NCBI GenBank assembly: GCA_963691655.1
Contig: OY829329.1
Location: 8,384,708-8,448,707 of the forward strand
DNA: 64,000 nucleotides
DNA from: Toxonevra muliebris
Taxonomy: Eukaryota > Arthropoda > Insecta > Diptera > Pallopteridae
Direction of reading: 5' to 3'
Both the position numbers and the translations under genes were made by a program. Below, piece after piece: positions 2,061 through 64,000 of this stretch (the first letter of the stretch is position 1; every line of letters begins with the position of its first letter). The notes beneath the pieces are model-generated. The model saw only the letters and a program-made list of their open reading frames with translations, was not told the DNA's origin and searched no databases.

Positions 2061-5000
2061 TTATGAGTGAAGACTATAGCTGCTGACTTTGCCATTATCA
2101 TCGAGCGTTGTGGTAGCAGCTTTGTAGCCAGCACGTTGTCCATTAATGTCATAGTTTTCACTTTCGCCAGTAGATAATTCCTTGAAATTCTTAACTTGGC
2201 CATCAGATCCAAACTAAAAAAGAATCAAAAAAAGATTTTAATTAAAAATTATAAATTGATTCTCGATTTTTTTTTAAACCTACTTCAGATTGAGATGACC
2301 ATTTGGAGGCTTTCTCCCATGATTTTGTTTTGTAACCGCTGTTTGAGCCGCCAGCACCAGCTCCATAACCACCAGCGTTTAGACCGCCATAACCACCACT
2401 TGCACCCCCAACGCTACCGAAACCACCTCCAAAGCCGCTTTCAAGATTGCTCGCCTGGCTACTGCCAACGCGTACTCCTCCTACATTAATGCCTTGAGCC
2501 TGCTGCTTAGCTAAACGTTCAGCCTCTGTCATATAGTGGGTTAGACCAGAAGAACTTGCTGCCCCAGTTCCGCTGAAACCAGAGTCAGCACCAAAGTTTG
2601 ACCTTGAACCGAATTTCGAATTGAAATTGGACTCAGTACCAAATGCAGAACCAAACTTGTGTTGTGCACCAAAATTTGAGCCAAATTGAGAAGCAGCATT
2701 GGATCCAAAACCAGCTTGATTTGAAGCACCATATCTAGAGCCTGAAGTAAGACCAGCTGAAGTTAGTGCACTAGAGCCTAGCAAAAAAAAAAAGAAGCAA
2801 GTGACTTAAGATGCATTTAAGATGATCGTATTTTAATAGTTACCGAAACCAGTTTGAAGTCCCGCATTAGATCCAGAGTAAGAGTTCAAGTTAGAAGAAG
2901 AAGTTAAACCTCCTGAAAGCAGAGCGCCCAGCTGAGATCCAGCATTGGACGAAGAAGAGGTCTGATGAACATATGACGAGTGACTGCCTCCAGATGGTTG
3001 TACGATCACTTGAGGTTGTGACGATGTTGTTACTTTCCTGTATTTAACATAAGATTCATGACCGCCAGATGGAGCAGTATATTGAATGACGGGTTGACTC
3101 TGTACGCGACGTTCTTCATGGTGCACGTAGTTTTCTGAACCACCGCTTGGAACAGTGTATTGCAGAACAGGGCGACTCTGTACACGTCTCTCTTCGTGAT
3201 GTATATAGTTTTCGGAACCACCTGATGGTGCAATATACTGAACAACCGGTTTACTTTCAGTGTGACGCTCTTCATGATGCACATAGTTCTCACCACCCGA
3301 AGGAGCCGAATAGATTACTTGAGGTTGAGCCTGAATGACACGACGTTCTTCATGATGATAATATTTCTCAGCACCACCTGATGGTGCAATATACTGAACA
3401 ACAGGTTTACTTTCAGTATGACGTTCCTCATGATGTACGAAGCTTTCACCACCAGTGTTACCACCGCTAGAAACAACAACTTGAGGCACACTTTGAGATT
3501 GAACATTTTCCGAATGCTCTGAGAAGGTAGATGATGATGCGCCACCAGCTGTAACTGGAATAACCACTGAGTGAGTAGAAGCACCTAAGCTAGCGCTACT
3601 ATCATAATTGGAACTACCTCCAAAAGATGAAGCAGCCTGAGTACCAAAGTTGGCAGAATGGCTACCACCAAATGAAGCGGCATTTTCAGCGCCAAATGAA
3701 GCAGCATTTTGAGCACCGAATGAGGCAGCATTTTCAGCACCAAATGAGGCAGCATTTTGAGCTCCGAATGAACTTTCTGAACCGAATGAAGCGGCATTTT
3801 GTGCGCCGAATGAAGCAGCATTTTGTGCGCCAAATGAAGCAGCATTTTGTGCGCCAAATGAAGCAGCATTTTGTGCGCCGAAAGAAGCAGCATTTTGTGC
3901 GCCAAACGAGGCAGCATTTTGTGCGCCAAATGACGCAGCGTTTTGTGCACCGAATGATGAGTCATAACCGCTTGATGCTCCGAAATCAGCGCCGGATCCA
4001 CCGGATACACCAACAGTTCCAACACCACCATATGAACCGATTTCTTCGAACGATGACTGATGTTGTCTGTGTGTTAGAAATTAAATTTATTTAGAATTAT
4101 TTGAATTACTGAGTATAGATCTAAGTGATTTAAATCTTACCCATCATAACTAGAGCCTAAGGTGTCACTGACTTTCTTCTTTGCCTCTTCAACTGTTTGG
4201 TGATGTTGGCTATAATGTCTATTATAAATGTAAAAAGTTATGATTAAATAATAAATGAAAAATAAAATTTTGAAAAAATTTTGAATTTTGTTAACTAAAT
4301 AATTTAGTTTTCTATAGTTTAATAGAAAAACTGTAAATTTTTGTACCAAGCCAATTAGGAATTCTTTTTACCAATTATAAAAAAAAAAAAATATTCCATC
4401 ATTGTTAAGGTACTTACAAATGGTGAAAACTTCTCCTTCTGTATTTGTAATATTTTTAAATAATAAAATAAAATTAAATACATAATTAAATAAATAAAAG
4501 TCTAAAGTTTTTTTTTTTTTGAAATTTATACATTAATTAGATTGTATATTTACCTTCCTTCCAGATCATCTGAAAAAGAAAATTCAATTTAATAAGTTTA
4601 TATACAATTTTCGATAGAATATCGTTTAATTTTATTTGAACGAATAATAATTACTAAGCATAAAGCCTAGTAAACTTAAATTGATCACACTCTAGGGCAG
4701 TAATTTCCAAAACACTGCCCGCGGGCAAATACCGAACGTAGGCTCACACATACTTAATATGTGTACACTGAGAGATCTCGGTAGTTGGCGCTGAAAAATC
4801 AAGCAAGTGAGATGGTACGCTGTAAAACTTCGTATTAATTGTAAATGCAAGAGAGCAAGTCAGTCATGTTGTGGTACACGCAGAATAAATGAATTTTGCA
4901 TGTACTTATTTCAAACAAAAAGAACCATTTATTTCATACTATGTATTCATATCTATGCTCTCAGTGTAGCGCTCTCACAAACTCACCCATACACTATAAA

Positions 5001-7192
5001 TAAATTGAAATGCTTCTGCATAAGTTGTGGAAATGACTGCTCTAGGGAGAAAAATTAAAATGGGAGCACATTAGCATTCACAACAACAAAAATTGTTCTA
5101 TTGCAAGTGTTGTTGTGAAATGAAAAGAAAATAACATTCTTCTCTTCCCACGTATTCGATTGCCAACGATTCTGTACTGTATGAATGTTAAAATGGAGGA
5201 ACCACTCAACTGTTAAATGATTCTGTACTGTTAAACAATTTTGAATGTTAACTGACAAACTACTCTACTGTTAAACGATTCTGTACTATTTGAATGTTAA
5301 AACATTGACGATTTCAAACTATTTAATTATTGAGACATTGTCTCAAAGAAATCACTTAAGTCATAAGTAGATAATTATATTTATTAAGTAAATTTATTAA
5401 AATTAAGTAATTAAGGAAGTAAATATTTTATTTCTCAAAATTATTGCGTTATAATTATCAATGACGACAACATTTCATTATCACATGTACTATATATATT
5501 TATTAAACAGGATGTTATTATCATTTTGTTTAATCAGACAATCATTGCATAATAATTAAATTTTATATTTTTGTTTAATTTTCTAGTTAGAAGAGGTGAT
5601 AATATTATACTGCTACGATTCAGTTTCACTAAATATTTTATGTCACAAATGTCAATCATTATCTCTGGACCATAAATTATGAAACAATCTCATTTATAAT
5701 GCTAAATTTAGTTAATAATTAAAAAAAAAAAAATTCAATTACTTAATTTTAGAATGGTTTATTGCTAGGTGAAGATTTAAAGAAAAAACAATAAATATTT
5801 TCGTTTTTGATAGTGCAATCGAAATTCCGTTATGTGATTAGGTGCGTATTGAACTGAAAATAAATGCACTGGAATATTGAAAAATATGAAACTAAAGTGC
5901 GTTTAATCAGTTTAAACAGTAATTTACATATTATAGAAAGGAAACTATACCAATATCTTGTGAAATATAAAATTCAGATAGGATCTTAGAAATTCATAGT
6001 ACCAGCAATCAACATATGAATTTCAAAATATTTTTCTATATAAATTTAGTGATGGTGCACATTCCTTTTTATTTAAATATTTAAAATTTTATTCAAACTT
6101 TTTTTTTATATATATTTGACAAATCGTCGCCTGAGAATTAATTTGGCGTATGTGTATAAGTATTCCTATGCCTATACGCCAAATCAATTCTCAGGCGACG
6201 AAATAATAGTATTAAAAAAACCCTAAATTAATGACAATATAAATATAACGGCGAATTCACCGACAGAACTCTACTCTCTCTTTTCTTTTTTTTTTTTTTT
6301 TTTGTATGAAGTTTTAACACTTTTAATTTATTAGGGCGAAAAACTTCATATGAAATGAACGCTCTCAATTTAAGAGAGGGAAAAACTTCATATAAAAAAA
6401 AAGAGAGTGAGGTACTCGGTAGGTGAATCCGCCATAATTCATACCAAGAGAGTTGACAATTGCACACATTCGCAAAGAAAAAAAAATCAATTAACTAATT
6501 ACAGTTTTTAATCGCCATTGAGTGAGAGTTGAAATCTTTCAATATATCGATGATTAAGCTGGCAAATCCATTAAGTGCACTTTTGCGTAAAAAAAGAGGT
6601 TAACTGCATTTTTTAAGTCATCAATATATCGCTCATTTACTAAAAAAACGTGATTTTGCAGAAAACGCGTTTAAAGTTTTCAATTGACTCACACTTTGGA
6701 TTAAAAAAGAAGAAATCTTATAATTCTCATGCACAGAGTATACAAGGTATTAATATGAAATTTTTACACAATATTACTCAAAAATCGTGTTTTTTGACTT
6801 ATGACAGTCTTTTAGTAAATGAGAGATATAATCCCAGCCTATTGTGTAGTTGTTTCAAGTGATTAGTGACAGTAATAGCGATTCAAGGCGCAATTGAAAT
6901 CGATATTATGTAATTTTAAATTCGTAGCTTGTGTAAATTTTCAAATTTGGCACTTAATACATCTAAGAGTTTAGCCATCAATATGCAGTAGAATGTACTT
7001 TTCAGATAATTAAAATTTAATGACATATAGTTCCTCTTTTTTTTTAAATATATTACACAAACATCTTCACACTTTTCACTTTTTTTCAAACCAATAAATA
7101 TTAATTACTAATCTCTAAATCCTACAAAAAAAAAAAAATTTACCTGCCACTACAGCACAAAGGCACAATGCCAATACGATGAAACACTTCAT
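2061..7192 (-). CDS. Gene A: secreted Gly/Ser-rich protein with two internal repeat domains, 677 aa, 7 coding exons
   Basis: The exons, in transcript order, are 7192-7144, 4569-4554 (16 nt), 4438-4418 (21 nt), 4218-4141, 4066-2844, 2777-2284 and 2213-2061. All have GT/AG borders and compatible phases, totalling 2034 nt with the stop. Exon 1 encodes a clear signal peptide (MKCFIVLALCLCAVVA), cleaved before DDLEGRRRS. Residues about 93-200 are an 8-residue repeat close to SFGAQNAA. Residues about 240-395 hold five units of roughly 25 residues built on HHEERxxxSxPVxQYxAPSGG plus a degenerate sixth. Exon 6 is Gly/Ser/Ala/Phe-rich. The last exon has a distinct non-repetitive tail with YDINGQRAGY and TLDDNGKVSSYSLHS. 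The tail resembles gene B's (ADVNGKKTGSRG, TINDNGKVTTYRVHN). No enzymatic domain or chitin-binding (R&R) motif is seen. The composition suggests an extracellular structural, silk-, glue- or eggshell-like protein, which is an inference. The start is chosen for the signal peptide; the 2.6-kb intron 1 carries several transposons. Confidence 0.8.
3000..3450 (-). repeat. HHEER...APSGG tandem repeat domain in gene A exon 5
   Basis: Five in-frame units of 72-75 bp, plus a decayed sixth, are readable on the minus strand as HHEER(H/R) followed by a basic/Gln stretch, PV(V/L/I)QY, then PSGG. Units alternate between HTESKPVV and RV(Q/I) versions, suggesting duplication in pairs. The repeat respects reading frame. 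Confidence 0.8.
3625..3965 (-). repeat. 24-bp coding minisatellite (SFGAQNAA) in gene A exon 5
   Basis: About a dozen 24-bp units encode S-F-G-A-(Q/E)-N-A-A. The 5' half of the coding direction is nearly homogeneous, and the 3' half varies (GSESS, GGSHSANFG). The unit is a codon multiple, so copy-number change keeps frame. The plus-strand open frame over the same bases (3627-4094) is its antisense shadow. Confidence 0.85.
4683..5330 (-). mobile_element. Copy 2 (short, reversed) of the 'TTTAACAGTACAGAAT' element
   Basis: The reverse complement matches the element at about 19.6-21.16 kb: the same GTACAGAATCGTTGG(C/T)AATCGAA block, the same GAGAAGAATGTT, the same GTTGTGAA(T/C)GC(T/A)AATGTG block, and the same end CTGCCCTAGAGTGTGAT (here reversed at 4684-4700). 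Only three or four of the CAGTACAGAAT minisatellite units are present, against dozens in the other copy. It lies inside intron 1 of gene A. Confidence 0.65.
5331..6123. other. Gene A intron 1, unique AT-rich sequence
   Basis: No open frame, repeat or splice-like exon could be supported in this stretch. Confidence 0.5.
6124..6201. mobile_element. 78-bp near-palindromic MITE, copy 1
   Basis: The 27-bp arms start TCGTCGCCTGAGAATT(A/G)A, with one mismatch between arms, around a loop of about 24 bases. The same hairpin recurs at 22891-22967 and 28923-29000. It codes for nothing. It sits in gene A intron 1, so the pre-mRNA would carry the hairpin. Confidence 0.8.
6249..6434. mobile_element. MITE, GGCGAATTC family, copy 2 (186 bp)
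   Basis: It starts CGGCGAATTCACCGAC and ends GTGAATCCGCCA, flanked by TAA at 6246-6248 and 6435-6437, the same duplication as copy 1. Internal AAAACTTCATAT and its complement occur on both sides, as in copy 1. It lies in gene A intron 1. Confidence 0.75.
6624..6831. mobile_element. MITE, 'CTCATTTACT' family, copy 1
   Basis: The termini are ATATCGCTCATTTACTAAAA and the complement TTTTAGTAAATGAGAGATAT. The interior matches 44527-44752, which lies in the opposite orientation (shared AAACGCGTTT, AAGAAATCTTATAATTCTCA, AATATGAAATTTTTACACAA). Here the left terminus has lost its inner GACTGTCATAA part. Confidence 0.7.
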
Positions 7193-28854: not shown

Positions 28855-29145
28855 TCACACTCAAACGAAACTAATAAGAAACGAAGTTATACTATTGTTA
28901 GTGTTTCGCAAATGAAGTCATATCGTCGCCTGAGAATTGATTTGGCGTATTGGTATATGAATTTGTACACACATACGCCAAATCAATCCTCAGGCAACGA
29001 TATGGGGATCGGCTGTATACAATCAAGCAAAGAGTTGACTTCTCACAGTGCTTTAGTGAGAGAGCTTAATTCCATATAGCTGAACTTTCCTTTCATGTGT
29101 TTGTGCCAATAAATGTAGAAGAGAGTACCAATAGAAAATAGAAAA
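28855..29145 (+). mobile_element. 'AATAAGAAACGAAGTTAT' repeat family, copy 2
   Basis: It starts ACTCAAACGAAACTAATAAG and runs to CTTTAGTGAGAGAGC and beyond. It is interrupted at 28923-29000 by the 78-bp hairpin MITE. Comparison with 48135-48475 shows the uninterrupted order. Confidence 0.65.
28923..29000. mobile_element. 78-bp near-palindromic MITE, copy 3, with empty-site evidence
   Basis: The arms are TCGTCGCCTGAGAATTGATT and the complement AATCAATCCTCAGGCAACGA. It is flanked by TA on both sides (TCATA before, TATGG after). The related repeat at 48135-48475 has a single CATATAAGAATCGG at this place, consistent with insertion and TA duplication. Confidence 0.85.
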
Positions 29146-46273: not shown

Positions 46274-47250
46274 ATATGGGACATTCTCTGTCAATGGGAG
46301 ACCCCTCCCCCCCTGATCAAAATTGGTTAAGGTATTTTAGAGCATGTTTGGGCTCAAATGAAAGCTTATTATCTCTATGTTTCGAATGCAACAACGCCTT
46401 TTTTGATTTTGCATGATGGCGGACCAATATGGCGGCTGCAAGTCTACCACCTCACCTTAAAATAATAGTTTTATCAAGCGTACGTTTAGCCAAGTCATCT
46501 TTAAAAAACAGATAAAGCCTTTTTTCGTATATTTTTTTTTGCTGAATATGAATCTAATATTATTTTTTACGGGATATGTCATGTGTTGTCCCTAACCTCA
46601 AAAAAGGTCGGGACTTACGCTTACCAAAGTCGTCATAAAACGACGGGGAAGTCTTATTTTTGTGTAGTTTCAACTGATAAACATGAATCAAATATTATTT
46701 TCCACTGAAAATGTTACATGTCGTCCCTAACCTCAAAAAATTAAAAATCTCAAAAAACTTTTTTTCATGTCTCATGTGTCCCAAATCACCAGAAAACTTC
46801 CCAAAAACCTTATTCTTCATTATTAATTTAGTTTTCACTCTAATAAAGCACCGCAAAGAAAACAGAGGCTTACTAAGTTAACGTCGTTGTTTCTGGGTAA
46901 CGTTAAAAGTATGTTACAGCCAAGTGAAGGAATGAAAATTGAAAAACAAGTCATTTGGGAAGCTTTCTGATGACTTGGGATAGGTGAAACACGAAAAAAA
47001 GTTGTTTGGGATTTTTCATTTTTTGAGGTTAGGGACGAAACATAACATTTCCTGTAGAAAATAATATTGGATTCATGTTCATCAACTGAAATTACACGAA
47101 AATGGGCTTTTCCGGTCGTTTTATGATGACTTGGGTAAGCGTAAGACCCGAACAAACAGCCTCTTTGGACCTTTTTTGAGGTTAGGGACAACACGTAACA
47201 TTTCCTGTGAAAAATAATATTAGATTCATTGACAGAGAATGACCCATATA
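46274..47250. mobile_element. Foldback element, about 980 bp
   Basis: The outer inverted ends are ATATGGGACATTCTCTGTCA and the complement TGACAGAGAATGACCCATAT. Inside, each arm carries tandem copies of a section with AATATTATTTT, GTCCCTAACCTCAAAAAA and GTCGT(C/T)ATAAAACGAC, in opposite orientation in the two halves. The minus frame at 46835-47194 is made of these arms and shows no domain. Confidence 0.7.
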
Positions 47251-56977: not shown

Positions 56978-57244
56978 TCAACCGAAAATCTTCTCGAAAC
57001 ATGTATGGCAATAGGGTTTATCATTTTGCTCCTTGAAGGTGCCCTTGTTGAGTTGCTTGAGGCAGAAGGCGCATACGAAATGTTCGGGATGGAATTTCTT
57101 GAACATCGCAGTGATACAGCGTCCGGTAATGGGTTTCGAACAACCGGCACAGAGGGAGCCACGCTTGGCATGATAATGTGTCTCGCAGTAGGGCAGACCT
57201 TCATGATCGAAGAATGAGCCTCCCTGGAAAGGTAGTCGGCAATC
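56978..57244 (-). CDS. Pax: Paxillin, last coding exon (end of LIM3, whole LIM4, stop)
   Basis: The acceptor TTTCAG lies at 57245-57250 and the exon opens in phase 0. It encodes 88 residues plus TGA. The first part, [20 protein letters not shown] then ETHYH, is the second zinc module of LIM3. The rest is LIM4 with zinc ligands CAGC, HFVC, CAFC and YCHTC, plus the paxillin hallmarks [20 protein letters not shown] and [18 protein letters not shown]. It ends in FEKIFG, a few residues after the last Cys as in paxillins. Paxillin is a cytoplasmic adaptor of integrin adhesions; in the family the LIM domains serve focal-adhesion targeting and partner binding. Upstream exons are not found in the 6.7 kb to the right, so they lie beyond the window or are too short to recognise. 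Hic-5-type paralogues are a vertebrate alternative; in flies paxillin is the expected identity. Confidence 0.93.
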
Positions 57245-57419
57245 CTGAAAGACACAAAAGAAAAAGAGGGGGAAAAATATGAGTAAGAAGTTAATGAAAT
57301 TGTAATTTTTTTGAATAGTTGCAAAGATAATAATGTAAAATAAGAATTCAATTGAAAATATATAAATTTAAGATGTGTAAATTTGTATATGAAATAATGA
57401 AACTGAATTCAGAAATAAA

Positions 57420-58670
57420 GACGATTTGAAATCTGAAAGCAAAAGTTAAATTGGAATCAGAAAACGAAAAATTGAATTCAAAATTGTCAAATTGAATTCA
57501 GAAAACGACAACTTGAATCTTGAAAACGACAATTTGAATTCAAAATAGTCAAATTGAATTCAGAAAACGGCAATTTGAATCTTGAAAAGGACAATTTGAA
57601 TTCAAAATAGTCAAATTTAATACAGAAAACGGCAATTTGAATCTTGAAAACGACAATTTGAATTCAAAATAGTCAAATTGAGTTCAGAAAACGACAACTT
57701 GAATCTTGAAAACGACAATTTGAATTCAAAATAGTCAAATTGAATTCAGAAAACGGCAATTTGAATCTTGAAAAGGACAATTTGAATTCAAAATAGTCAA
57801 ATTTAATACAGAAAACGACAACTTGAATCTTGAAAACGACAATTTGAATTCAAAATAGTCAAATTGAGTTCAGAAAACGACAACTTGAATCTTGAAAACG
57901 ACAATTTGAATTCAAAATAGTCAAATTGAGTTCAGAAAACGGCAATTTGAATCTTGAAAACGACAATTTGAATTCAAAATAGTCAAATTGAGTTCAGAAA
58001 ACGACAATTTGAATCTTGAAAACGACAATTTGAATTCAAAATAGTCAAATTGAGTTCAGAAAACGGCAATTTGCATCTTGAAAACGACAATTTGAATTCA
58101 AAATAGTCAAATTGAGTTCAGAAAACGACAACTTGAATCTTGAAAACGACAATTTGAATTCAAAATAGTCAAATTGAGTTCAGAAAACGGCAATTTGAAT
58201 CTTGAAAACGACAATTTGAATTCAAAATAGTCAAATTGAGTTCAGAAAACGACAACTTGAATCTTGAAAACGACAATTTGAATTCAAAATAGTCAAATTG
58301 AATTCAGAAAACGGCAATTTGAATCTTGAAAAGGACAATTTGAATTCAAAATAGTCAAATTGAATTCAGAAAACGGCAATTTGAATTCAAAATAGTAAAA
58401 TTGAGTTCAGAGAACGACAATTTGAATCTTGAAAGCGGCAATTTGAATTCAAAACTGTCAAATTGGAAACAGAAAACGAAAATTTGAATCCGAAAGCGAC
58501 AATTTGAATTCAAAATTGAATTAAGAAAACGACAATGCGAATCTTGAAAACGGCAATTTGAATTCAAAAACGACAATTTGAATGTAAAATAATCAAATTG
58601 AATTCAGAAAACGAAAATTTGATCCGAAAGCGACAATTTGAATTCAAAATAGTCAAACCAAATTCAGAAA
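57420..58670 (+). repeat. 62-bp minisatellite in the paxillin intron
   Basis: The unit is TGAATCTTGAAAACGACAAT + TTGAATTCAAAATAGTCAAA + TTGA(A/G)TTCAGAAAACG(A/G)CAA + (T/C)T, with about 14 well-matched units from 57510 to 58385 and decayed half-units at both sides. Neighbouring units alternate GACAACTT and GGCAATTT endings, giving a partial 124-bp higher-order period. Open frames across it are incidental. Confidence 0.9.
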
Positions 58671-60171
58671 ATGTATTCAAATTTGTTCCATGTATGTCTG
58701 CAGATCAAGTCATATATGGCATGGAAATTTTTTGCTTTAGACGGACGAAAGCTAAAAATACGTACCTATTTATTTCACAAAACAAATAAATGAAAAAAAC
58801 AAACTTTATTACATTTTATTTTATGACAAAATAAATTATTCACTTTCAAATTTCACTACAAATCGGTCGATTATGGCGTTGGTGGGCAATATGACATTGA
58901 AAATGTACTCAAGGATTTCATTAAAGTGTCACCAAAAAAAAAATCAACTAAAAATTATTTCGCCGTAAAATTTTTGAATTGCGTTGTCAATAGAAATGAC
59001 AGCAATAACAACAGCAACTGTTGTTGCGATGAAGGTGATGTTGGCTGGTTCGACAGCAATAACAGCAACAACAACTACCCAAAAACCAATATCAACCTCA
59101 AAAACATTAAAAAAAAACATAATAATAAAATAATTGAAAATAAGAACAAATACTAGAGACCAGACAAACAGAAAGACAAACATGCAGGCAGGCAGTCAGG
59201 CAATTTTGCTCTATTTTCATGCGCCGCTTTAGGCCAACCTACTAATTAAATGCAATAAATTAGCGTTCATTGAGCGCGCACCGCAAATATCATTTTGCAT
59301 TGAAACGGAAGAATAATTTTGTTGCGAGAATGTCGGAAATGAATTATAGAGATACAATTACAGACAGACAGAGAGACAGAACGAACGAACGAACTACTCG
59401 TTCTACTATTGCAATGCCAACAATTTTTAATACAAGAATTTTGGATGTCAAGATTTTTGCAATATAAATAAAATTTTTTATATGAACTATGAAAATGTTG
59501 CCAAATATGTAGATAAATAATTACGATGAAAGCGACAATAAACGCGACGACAGTAACAAGCTTTAAACATATGCAATTCAAATAGATGCAAATTTGATGC
59601 TTGATAATAAAATATTGGATATAAATTAATTAATAATTATATAGAGTTTTTTTGCACAGTGGATTTGAAATAATTTTTATATTGTTAATGTTTGAAAAAT
59701 GACAAGAAATATATCGCAATTATTTTATGTATGGGAATAGAAATTGGGGCATCTGGGACAATTAAGTCATAAATGGTTTTAACAAAAATATACAAAGTTT
59801 AAGATTTTAATTTACACCATTATGCATAAACAGTGCAAGAAGATTTGCCTGAAATATTTACGACGAATATTTTTGAGAAATTATTATTTTCATTATTATT
59901 GAAAAAGCAAGCAGTAAAAATGAAAAAAAGGAAGGTAAGGGAAGAAAATGATGATGGATATTTATTGTTATAATTATAATTTTTGCATATATATACAACA
60001 GACCATAGAGCACACTTTTGGCAATATGTCAAAACAAAACCAAAAATATACTATAAAAATACACTGCGAAGCAAAAATCTCCGAACGCTTGATTAAATGA
60101 TACTAAACTTATAAGAAAACATTATTAAAACTGTGAGGCAGAGTGCGGTACTTGGTACTTGAATCCTCTTT
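58671..60171. other. Paxillin intron, unique sequence
   Basis: It includes AAC/GAC-type simple repeats near 59000-59080 and GACAGACAGAGAGACAGA-type repeats near 59365. No LIM, LD-motif or other exon can be supported. Confidence 0.4.
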
Positions 60172-61070: not shown

Positions 61071-62006
61071 TAATATTTCTCACTAGAAAAATTTTGCAAT
61101 GGTAAACTCATTTCGATAACGGTATTATATACACATTCATTTCTTCTCTCTCTCTCTATTCTTTTTCAATTTCATTTTCATTGGCTTTGACTTGTAACTG
61201 CTAATATTATTTGATTCAAGTTTAGAAAGAAGTTTGCCACTTTTACTGCTATATTTTTGTATACAATCTTGTTCATAATTCATGAGATTAAATGAAACAA
61301 TTTTTAAAACTTACTTTCGCTTGATTTTGATTATTTTAAGTAAATTAAATGAAAATATTTTAATACATTTTTACTTTATATTTAAAAAAAAAATTTGTAT
61401 GAGGCTCACATGTGCTTATAAAAAAAATAAATAAAAAGTTTGTTTTAGTGCTAAAAATGTGTTGTAAAGCTAGTTCAAATAAAAATTGTCATCATTGCAT
61501 ATCGTGCGAAATGAGTAAAAAAAAAAAAATAATAAAATTCTTGTATGGGCGATGTTACACGTTCAATGTTTTGCTGTCAAACAATGAAATTGTTGTTGCT
61601 TTGAAAAATAAACACTGAGCAAAAGAGAGAATGAACAGATTTCACTTGAAATTTATTTACTGACGAAAAAAACCTGCATCACTTCAAATAAAATGAGGTT
61701 GCTGAAGATACACTGTTGCATTTTATTGAAAAATACTAATATTTTATGAAAAATACTAGACTTTTTACTAACTTTTAAACATGGTAATTCAATGGCCAAA
61801 TAACAAAGTGGCAGACCTTATTTTAATAGTTCGCAAATTTTAAAGATTATATTTCTACGTTTTTCATATATGAATGCAATATTTTTTGTATAATTTCCAC
61901 CAACATTATCTAATATTGTCATTATAATTATTTTCTATCCAATTCCATTGCAATTGTTGAATTTTCATTCACTCCAAAGTACAATTAAATACCTAATCTA
62001 TCACTA
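61071..62006. other. Paxillin intron, no gene seen
   Basis: AT-rich. The short frame at 61412-61618 contains a Cys-rich piece (KMCCKASSNKNCHHCISCEM) with no family match that I recognise and no clear splice context. Confidence 0.35.
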
Positions 62007-62055
62007 AGATCACTGATGAGGAATTGTGGCGGATTCCGAAACGGCCGTCTGATTT
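62007..62055 (+). ncRNA. Hammerhead ribozyme motif, minimal form
   Basis: All conserved core parts are present in order on the plus strand. Stem I 5' strand AGATCA is at 62007-62012. CTGATGA is at 62013-62019. Stem II is GGAAT/ATTCC (62020-62024 with 62033-62037) around the 8-base loop TGTGGCGG. GAAA is at 62038-62041. A very short stem III, CGGCCG, is at 62042-62047, and the cleavage triplet ends in TC at 62048-62049. Stem I 3' strand TGATTT is at 62050-62055 and pairs with AGATCA through five Watson-Crick pairs and one G-U. A15.1 pairs with U16.1 as required. Predicted cleavage is after 62049. Such minimal hammerheads with tiny stem III are known from Penelope-like retroelements and other retroelement-derived repeats. 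No reverse transcriptase is seen nearby, so this may be a short terminal fragment. It lies antisense to paxillin. Confidence 0.7.
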
Positions 62056-64000
62056 GCCCGTCTCTATATACATTGTTGATGTGATGACTACATTTGTTCA
62101 TTAAGCCTGTTTAAATATAACTTCCAATAACGAAATTAACATGAACTTTAGTCATGACTTTGAAAATTAACCTCTAGATTTAATTTTTATAGTCTCCTAA
62201 AAAACTAAATACTTTTTAGTTGGAAAAACATAGTTGCAGATAAAACTATTAAAAAATAACATTCAGCAAAAAACTGATAGAGTAACAGGGCATCAAACAA
62301 AACGATTAAGAGAGAGTAAAAACAGAAAACATTGACAGCAAAACATTGACCGTGTAACATCAGCCTATGTCAAGTTGTTGCTGTGGCAAAAAACTAATCC
62401 GTGCAGAGCACACACTGAAACTTTCTAAATACTTTCTGCTGAATAAAAAAACAGCGAAAGTAAATACTATTGTGTAAATTTGACGATCGTCAGCCGTAAT
62501 TTGTTTTTAGGTATAAATTTTCATTAACAATTCATTAATCTACTATTTTTCTACACCTTTATGTTTTACTAACATTACAAATCAATATGTAAATGCCAAA
62601 ATACAATATGGAGTAATTACACCTCATCTGCTTTTTGTTCTCCTTTCACAATACCGTTCACCCAAAAAAAAAAAAACAAAAAAAAAAACAAAAGAGCTGA
62701 GAGAAATCGTCGTTGCGTACTCGCAAACGCAGCCGAATACCCAAGAGCACATATTTTTTTTTATTACCAACAACATGCAATTGTAATTAAATGAGAGAGT
62801 ATTAGTAAAAAAAAAAAAAAGAAGAGCTCAAGAGAACAAGAAAGTCAAAGAGCAAGGTTTGTTTACTTTGATGTTGTTTTTGCATGAAGGAAGAGAGACA
62901 AGACAAAAACTAGGTCGTTTAAAATGAAATGAATATTTAGTTGCATAAGAAATTTTAATATCAAAAACTAAAATGAATTGATGTTATCATTTTTGTAAAA
63001 AAATTTCTCGATTTTGAGCTGCTCACACACCCACACTAATTATTTTTTCGTCAAGCTTTTTTTTTGGTGTTTTTCTTAGTTGGAGTATTTCATTTAAAAT
63101 GACACAAAATTTGTTTGGTTTTGATACTATGAATTTTTTTGCGATGGGTTAATTATCAAGTATACGAAAACTTTTCCACCGCAGTGTAAGTATATCTGTG
63201 CAAATGCAATTTATAGAACATTAAACAAAAATAAGAAGATAAATAAGAATTATTATGTAGATTTGGAGAAAACAACAGAAATTCAGATGAAAATAAAAAA
63301 ATAAAAATAAAATAAAAAAGTGAAAACGTTAAAAATAAAAAAAAAATAAAAACACACAATAATACACATAGAGATTAATGTTAGCAATTAAATATATACA
63401 TATGTAGATACTAATGAATAATATACTTAAAGCATATGAAACAACAATTGCAATTTGTTTACTTGAAGTTTTTAAGAAAAACAAAAACATATACACCAAT
63501 GAAAAATTATGTGTATATTGGTCCAAGGAAAAATTGAACTTAAGTCGCAATGCTAGACGCAGGTGTGCGTAATCAATCAGGTTATAGAATATTGGCCTAA
63601 ATATGATTGTGACTAGCACGCAATAGATAAGTAATTTATATACATAGTAACTATGACCTGTAAGAAGGTGATGATAGAGAGACTAACACACACACACACA
63701 CCTCACAAAAAAAAGGCAATCAGTGCCACCAGCAACACCTTGAACTTATGAATAAAGTGATGGATGAAGGTGTCGAAAAAGATGAAAGAAAGCAGTGCCA
63801 ACAGCAGGTGTAAACACTTGCGTTTTAGACATGCACACACTCACACACACACGTACAAGCAACACACAGAAAACCGAAACTAATCATAAAACGATCGATT
63901 GAGAGTACGTTGAATGACAACCGTTACGCATCGCAATGACTCGATCGTTGATTAGTTCGTGATGTGAGTGAGATATTGGTGTTGTTTTTGTTTTAATATT
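62056..64000. other. Paxillin intron or upstream region, no exon seen
   Basis: Long A and T runs and a (CA)n tract near 63688-63702. The first 80 bases after the ribozyme motif (CCCGTCTCTATATACATTGT and on) may belong to the same retroelement fragment. No other feature is supported. Confidence 0.4.

Follow-up and report, generated by a model that had tools for sequence, protein, structure and literature searches.

The stretch of DNA that we analysed, a window of 64,000 nucleotides from contig OY829329.1 of the fly Toxonevra muliebris, contains a hammerhead motif on its plus strand and, as the recognised exon nearest to it, a LIM exon on the opposite strand (Table 1); the gene is a putative paxillin gene, and the motif would lie in one of its introns. 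A pattern scan for additional LIM or LD motifs gave no match, but it also missed this LIM exon and so says little. The joined translations of two ACOX3 exons in the window were closest, among the best 120 matches listed, to those of tephritid, stalk-eyed, and blow flies (87-88% at 63% query coverage).

Table 1 Features at and around the hammerhead motif, in window positions
Feature	Position	Strand	Basis or remark
LIM exon, nearest recognised exon to the motif	56981-57367	-	motif lies on the opposite strand
TIR-bounded host element, interrupted by the hammerhead element	61547-62367	.	outer limits approximate
30-bp inverted repeats of the host, 29/30	61551-61580 and 62332-62361	.	
Left target site duplication TAAATAC, 7 bp	61986-61992	.	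single in the empty copy L019
Hammerhead element copy, single, 5'-truncated, 213 bp	61993-62205	+	empty-site alignment to L019
Right target site duplication TAAATAC, 7 bp	62206-62212	.	single in the empty copy L019
Hammerhead type I motif	62007-62055	+	full-length RF00163 match; 1,539 exact genome cores
Stem I, 5' strand, AGATCA	62007-62012	+	pairs with 62050-62055
Hammerhead core CTGATGA	62013-62019	+	
Stem II GGAATT/GATTCC, loop GTGGCG	62020-62037	+	6 pairs including one G-U
GAAA of the hammerhead	62038-62041	+	
Stem III palindrome ACGGCCGT, 8 nt	62041-62048	+	
C17	62049	+	predicted cleavage between 62049 and 62050
Stem I, 3' strand, TGATTT	62050-62055	+	

The motif follows the order of a type I hammerhead, with a CUGANGA core, stem II, GAAA, stem III, an NUH site, and an open stem I. 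A first-pass annotation of this DNA had reported a complete hammerhead core here, and we confirm that observation as real: every part is found, in correct order. Its predicted cleavage site agrees with the position of C17, and the palindromic stem III, which it had likened to those of dimer-acting hammerheads, is present; stem II also stands, with 6 pairs (counting one G-U) rather than the 5 given for it. The interpretation that had been built on the ribozyme is, as a whole, partly supported, as set out below. According to structure prediction, the hammerhead fold lies 5.5 kcal/mol above the MFE for a monomer; for a dimer in which the 8-bp helix III and a single helix I have formed, it lies 1.9 kcal/mol above. 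Single-strand folding of the motif region on its own was unremarkable (z -0.48, 0.22, and 0.01).

To score the motif we used the Rfam hammerhead model RF00163, which in a run on 86 bp matched over its full length (model 1-45/45) at exactly 62007-62055, with 23.8 bits and an E-value of 3.4e-4 over all 4,227 Rfam families. This score is under the gathering cut-off of 34 bits, a value that is curated and is not a structural feature of the hammerhead family, and the covariance check proposed earlier therefore gave a full-model match together with a score that falls short. At the gathering threshold nothing was listed in the whole 64 kb, and the hammerhead row was absent from E-value runs on 1,101 bp around the window motif and on 501 bp, enough for a whole unit, of another copy. 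A strict descriptor (a minimum of 5 pairs in stem II, 3 in stem III, and 5 in stem I) fitted 25 times in 32,000 simulated windows, which bears out the earlier argument that a chance match to every part is unlikely; a loose descriptor fitted 445 times in 32,000 (3/300 in an earlier small run).

The chance question is settled by the genome itself, since its 491 Mb (96 contigs searched) contain 1,539 exact copies of the 37-nt core (760 + 779), whereas the reversed core, used as a control, does not occur at all. Related copies, which the first-pass annotation had suggested looking for, are thus abundant. A 251-bp query gave at least 41 matches including the window itself (40 of 1,588 candidates scored), the others beginning at window positions 61995-62000. 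We fetched 20 of the 24 separate places listed (L009-L028) and found tandem units of 483 bp; across the arrays examined the unit measures about 482-487 bp, and at L009 five 483-bp units are letter-identical. We number the unit from window position 61998, so that predicted cleavage follows unit position 52. Among the motif instances at the first 28 loci, some of which overlap, 57 of 65 are identical over 53 nt. The unit has a GC content of 33.7%, and as a circle of 483 nt it is predicted to fold at -130.3 kcal/mol, compared with -86.8 +/- 9.4 kcal/mol for 60 Markov shuffles. Inside the insertions at L009-L028, two of which contain N stretches, every stop-to-stop frame is shorter than 150 aa; an ATG within CTGATGA opens a frame of 22 codons.

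The window copy consists of unit positions 1 to about 209 preceded by five unmatched 5' bases, CTAAT, and is 97.1% identical to an array unit over 210 columns. All 6 of its differences from the unit lie outside the motif, which is identical to that of the family. The copy sits in a TIR-bounded element, and locus L019 keeps this host uninterrupted, with TAAATAC present once, providing an exact empty site. The 30-bp repeats first suggested that the hammerhead was carried by a TIR DNA transposon, an idea we rejected because L019 is the TIR element without the insert: the repeats belong to the host element rather than to the ribozyme element. Inverted repeats equally long and close were found in 0 of 200 simulated windows, compared with 14 listings in the real window. 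Pieces of the TIR element, which is non-coding and has repeats of about 30 bp, are also found at L019, L029, L031, L032, and L055, the last of which has another hammerhead-element copy elsewhere in the TIR element, and a possible TATG duplication was seen by eye at the ends of the TIR element.

To see how the hammerhead element inserts, we read the ends of 26 insertions, comprising 20 best-hit loci (a sample biased to young copies), five loci that simply come first on contig C1, and the window copy. From the eight first places on C1, three were dropped as duplicates (L056 of L027, and L059 and L060 of L011). The two ends share at least 7 bp in 15 of the 26 insertions, compared with 83 of 991 random pairs, and at least 9 bp in 14; in the other 11 there is no common end of 7 bp or more, and one of these (L025) borders an N run. 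The 5' ends are variable and the 3' ends are clustered. Nineteen insertions have a single orientation, and 15 of these have their 3' end at unit 206-221, with that of L025, L053, and L058 at 95-135 and that of L016 at 178. The remaining seven (L009, L010, L017, L024, L028, L054, and L057) are head-to-head, and every one of them combines an end at unit 204-223 with an end at 111-134 and has a common end string of 9-14 bp; part of the L010 joint is N. Whole arrays lie within one duplication at L009 (five full units) and at L010 (12 full units in two arms). The insertion ends do not coincide with the cleavage site.

The first 100 of the 1,539 places fall into 75 clusters, namely 65 single cores and 10 arrays. 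Six of the seven arrays with at least three cores hold one period (483, 486, 484, 485 apart from a 738-bp joint, 486, and 486), and the seventh mixes 486 and 487. Because of this array, and because L010, which is outside the first 100 places, mixes units of 482 and 483 bp, an array-specific unit length is a tendency. In sequence, units differ about as much within arrays (mean 1.17, 83 pairs) as between them (1.23, 217 pairs). That the period is mostly constant within arrays and differs between them suggests that single units were multiplied, as by the copying of a circle; the copying of an existing array would look the same. At L010 variant units are interspersed: the change G47A in the stem III palindrome is present in both head-to-head arms, and a one-base deletion at 338 is confined to one arm.

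The genome also has resident Penelope-like elements (PLEs). A fragment of one of them, family A, lies at L010 (934-1554, minus strand) next to the hammerhead array and outside the array's duplication; the array itself sits in a PLE-A tail, as both flanks read as such tail. With the C-terminal PLE fragment of L010 as a query we obtained at least 151 matches (150 of 342 candidates scored), from which families A, B, and C were defined as groups at about 92%, 51%, and 38% identity. PLE-A has a long frame with RVT_1; its fragment gave a weak GIY-YIG match (16.7 bits, compared with a Pfam cut-off of 22.6), and a scan of the longer PLE-A frame gave no GIY-YIG match. The PLE label therefore rests on the reverse transcriptase, the hammerhead-like motif, the ends, and the general features of the group. 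Among the matches listed, protein relatives of PLE-A go up to 57% at 99% query coverage and to 60% at partial coverage, and the named ones among the best 120 listed are from flies. The ends of PLE-A fall at two places: in 18 readings, nine were short, eight were tailed, and one was cut by a contig end.

All three PLE families have a hammerhead-like motif, in PLE-A about 215 nt past the ORF stop (17 of the 19 loci L030-L048) and in PLE-B and PLE-C no more than 400 bp from the protein match (two loci each). By reading, these motifs are UCCC-CUGAAGA-A-GGC..GCC-GAAACGUU-GGGA in PLE-A, CUCC-CUGAGGA-U-GGUCUU..AAGACC-GAAACGCGUA-GGAG in PLE-B, and UGUC-CUGAAGA-U-GACUUC..GAAGUC-GAAAUAUU-GACA in PLE-C. 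Their stems differ in sequence and keep their pairing, and all three have one extra base ahead of stem II, which the window motif does not have. No Rfam hammerhead was listed for PLE-A or PLE-B, and none of the sampled families was found to have a motif of the window type. We tried the 483-bp unit as a pseudo-LTR (pLTR) of PLE-A, B, or C and rejected it, as the ends of the sampled copies gave only short, weak DNA matches.

In the fetched loci the TIR element lies beside or around PLE-A or hammerhead-element insertions three times, and at L031 and L032 PLE-A copies are joined within a few bases of the TIR family's TAAATAC site, the one that the window insertion used. A pattern search for one of these PLE-A junctions gave 19 matches, compared with 56 for the reversed control, and among the eight that were fetched only the already known locus was confirmed. 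As the hammerhead-element copy at L055 also lies elsewhere in the TIR element, a common target preference of PLE-A and the hammerhead element is only suggestive.

We infer that the element is a retroelement, present in many copies and without a protein of its own, that belongs with the metazoan non-LTR retrozymes and has PLE-like insertion habits. Metazoan non-LTR retrozymes are described as elements of 150-450 bp, from insects among others, whose circles are stated to be highly self-paired (PMC7229834). Like them, the fly element is AT-rich (the GC content of its unit is below 50%), has tandem units in many copies, every unit with a type I hammerhead, is apparently non-coding and free of LTRs, is predicted to form a highly self-paired circle, and has duplications of more than 4 bp, namely 7 bp in the window and at least 7 bp in the 15 insertions above. 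It differs in that its unit is just above what seems a descriptive size range, in that most copies are single cores, in its fly host, and in its head-to-head insertions with two end types, the main text of PMC7229834 having 0 words that begin with 'inverted'. A literature search found no published fly retrozyme, which is weak evidence, and viral contig scans gave 0 matches.

The insertion habits recall PLEs, which are flanked by inverted pLTRs, have duplications of 8, 9, or 10 bp, and optionally bear a tail on one side (PMC3846280), and for which minimal hammerheads have been described (PMC7761336, PMC6155905; also Cervera and De la Pena 2014 and Lunse et al. 2017, through citing papers). The fly element resembles them in a short palindromic stem III that suits dimers, in its tandem and inverted arrangement, in 5' truncation, in end strings of 7-14 bp (about 8-10 bp for PLE duplications), and in having one end longer than the other. 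The inverted arrangement, with its two end types and its duplications, is a likeness of mechanism, not of membership. The insertions examined differ from PLEs in having no reverse transcriptase or endonuclease frame, and the motif differs from those of the PLE-type families of this genome in having no extra base and in being recognised by RF00163. Of the link to Penelope that the first-pass annotation had drawn, the style of insertion thus stands, and a place of the copy within a Penelope LTR is not supported, given the absence of long frames in the 20 insertions and the different motifs of the PLEs. Our verdict is that the fly element belongs to the known retrozyme kind and inserts like a PLE.

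We consider it probable that the motif belongs to a retrozyme-type element whose self-cleaving tandem RNA is copied by an enzyme of PLE type, and that the window copy is truncated debris. Transcripts of tandem copies would cut themselves by means of dimeric hammerheads, in which two motifs pair with each other through the 8-nt palindrome of stem III, and the resulting unit-length RNAs would be ligated into circles. A Penelope-type reverse transcriptase would then start copying at internal sites, near unit 216 and 125, on a template that is circular or multimeric. With both strands of a staggered break serving as primers, this would give head-to-tail arrays as well as head-to-head joins, the window copy being a 5'-truncated insertion into a TIR transposon. 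As insertions end near 216 and 125 and span the cleavage site, the template must have been uncut or religated at 52. Head-to-head joins that combine the two end types are compatible with both strands of such a break acting as primers. The mobilising enzyme would be of PLE type; PLEs have been named a strong candidate to mobilise metazoan retrozymes by authors who left the machinery open (PMC7229834). In the PLE of Anolis, initiation is internal, hammerhead mutants had no effect on insertion in vitro, hammerhead cleavage needed protein, and zero reads started or ended at the cleavage site (PMC11167929). A need for hammerhead cleavage in insertion is thus not established even there. More tentative, and in our view somewhat doubtful, is the full proposal that a circle made by the hammerhead is copied several times round by a PLE enzyme, from both strands of the break and from two fixed sites at about 216 and about 125, with each array having its own unit length and many arrays being joined head-to-head.

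The strongest alternative is that the unit is the pLTR of an autonomous Penelope-like family we have not found, of which the arrays and single copies are ORF-less derivatives. Tandem and inverted pLTRs, duplications of 8, 9, and 10 bp, and a tail on one side are known in PLEs (PMC3846280), and the three sampled PLE-type families have hammerhead-like motifs after the ORF. The ATG in CTGATGA with its 22-codon frame recalls pLTRs that hold the first codons (PMC3846280), and likewise the Anolis ORF that starts at stem II (PMC11167929). We nevertheless consider this reading unlikely, as no stop-to-stop frame in 20 insertions is as long as 150 aa, the unit shows at most short, weak DNA matches to the ends of PLE-A, B, and C, and the motifs are set apart both by the extra base before stem II and by RF00163, which is listed for the window whereas no Rfam hammerhead is listed for PLE-A or PLE-B.

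It is very improbable that the element is satellite DNA, amplified and homogenised through unequal exchange or through DNA circles, and that its ribozyme is irrelevant to its spread. Tandem units with a mostly constant period are what such DNA would show, and the pDo500 satellite of Dolichopoda cave crickets is, like the fly element, an insect repeat with a hammerhead (PMC2837043, PMC2808323). Unlike that satellite, however, the fly element consists mostly of dispersed insertions, many with duplications: single cores make up 65 of the 75 clusters from the first 100 places, common ends surround whole arrays, 5' ends vary while 3' ends cluster, and head-to-head joins have one end of each type. 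For the window copy, the empty site with its duplication is a further argument against a satellite. Still less probable is a domesticated ribozyme that regulates paxillin or an antisense transcript. The exact agreement of the window motif with that of the family, compared with 6 differences elsewhere in the copy, could speak for it, yet 0 differences in 49 positions are unremarkable given 6 over about 150 other sites, and the window copy, which is truncated and lies inside a transposon, has only one of the 1,539 cores and is oriented opposite to the nearest LIM exon. The window ribozyme, alone and antisense to that exon, most likely does nothing for the gene. A chance or dead hammerhead look-alike, for which the score under the Rfam cut-off and the several runs without a listing might be cited, has a negligible probability in view of the full RF00163 match, the exact core found 1,539 times and its reverse never, and the near-uniform motif (57 of 65 instances from the first 28 loci, some overlapping).

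If the retrozyme-type reading with circle copying is true, this fly family would document a step that has been missing from accounts of how retrozymes transpose. Genomic evidence would then link retrozymes to PLE enzymes, and head-to-head PLE insertions could be accounted for with no need of self-priming. The 1,539 intact cores, the near-identical arrays, the empty site, and at least three PLE-type families make a workable system, a fly in which insertion ends, unit lengths, and RNA circles could be compared directly and a PLE protein could be offered this RNA in vitro. The window also illustrates how a hammerhead that lies in the region of a host gene can be nothing more than the remains of a transposon.

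Other repeats in the window include an open frame on the minus strand (2833-4080) with SFGAQNAA-type repeats and no Pfam match at 0.001, and a foldback element of about 610 bp with nested inverted repeats (46583-47194). A short hairpin repeat starting TCGTCGCCTGAGAATT is present in two copies, at 6124-6201 and 28923-29000, and a 62-bp tandem repeat, searched for from position 58000 on, has about 11 copies at 58000-58671.
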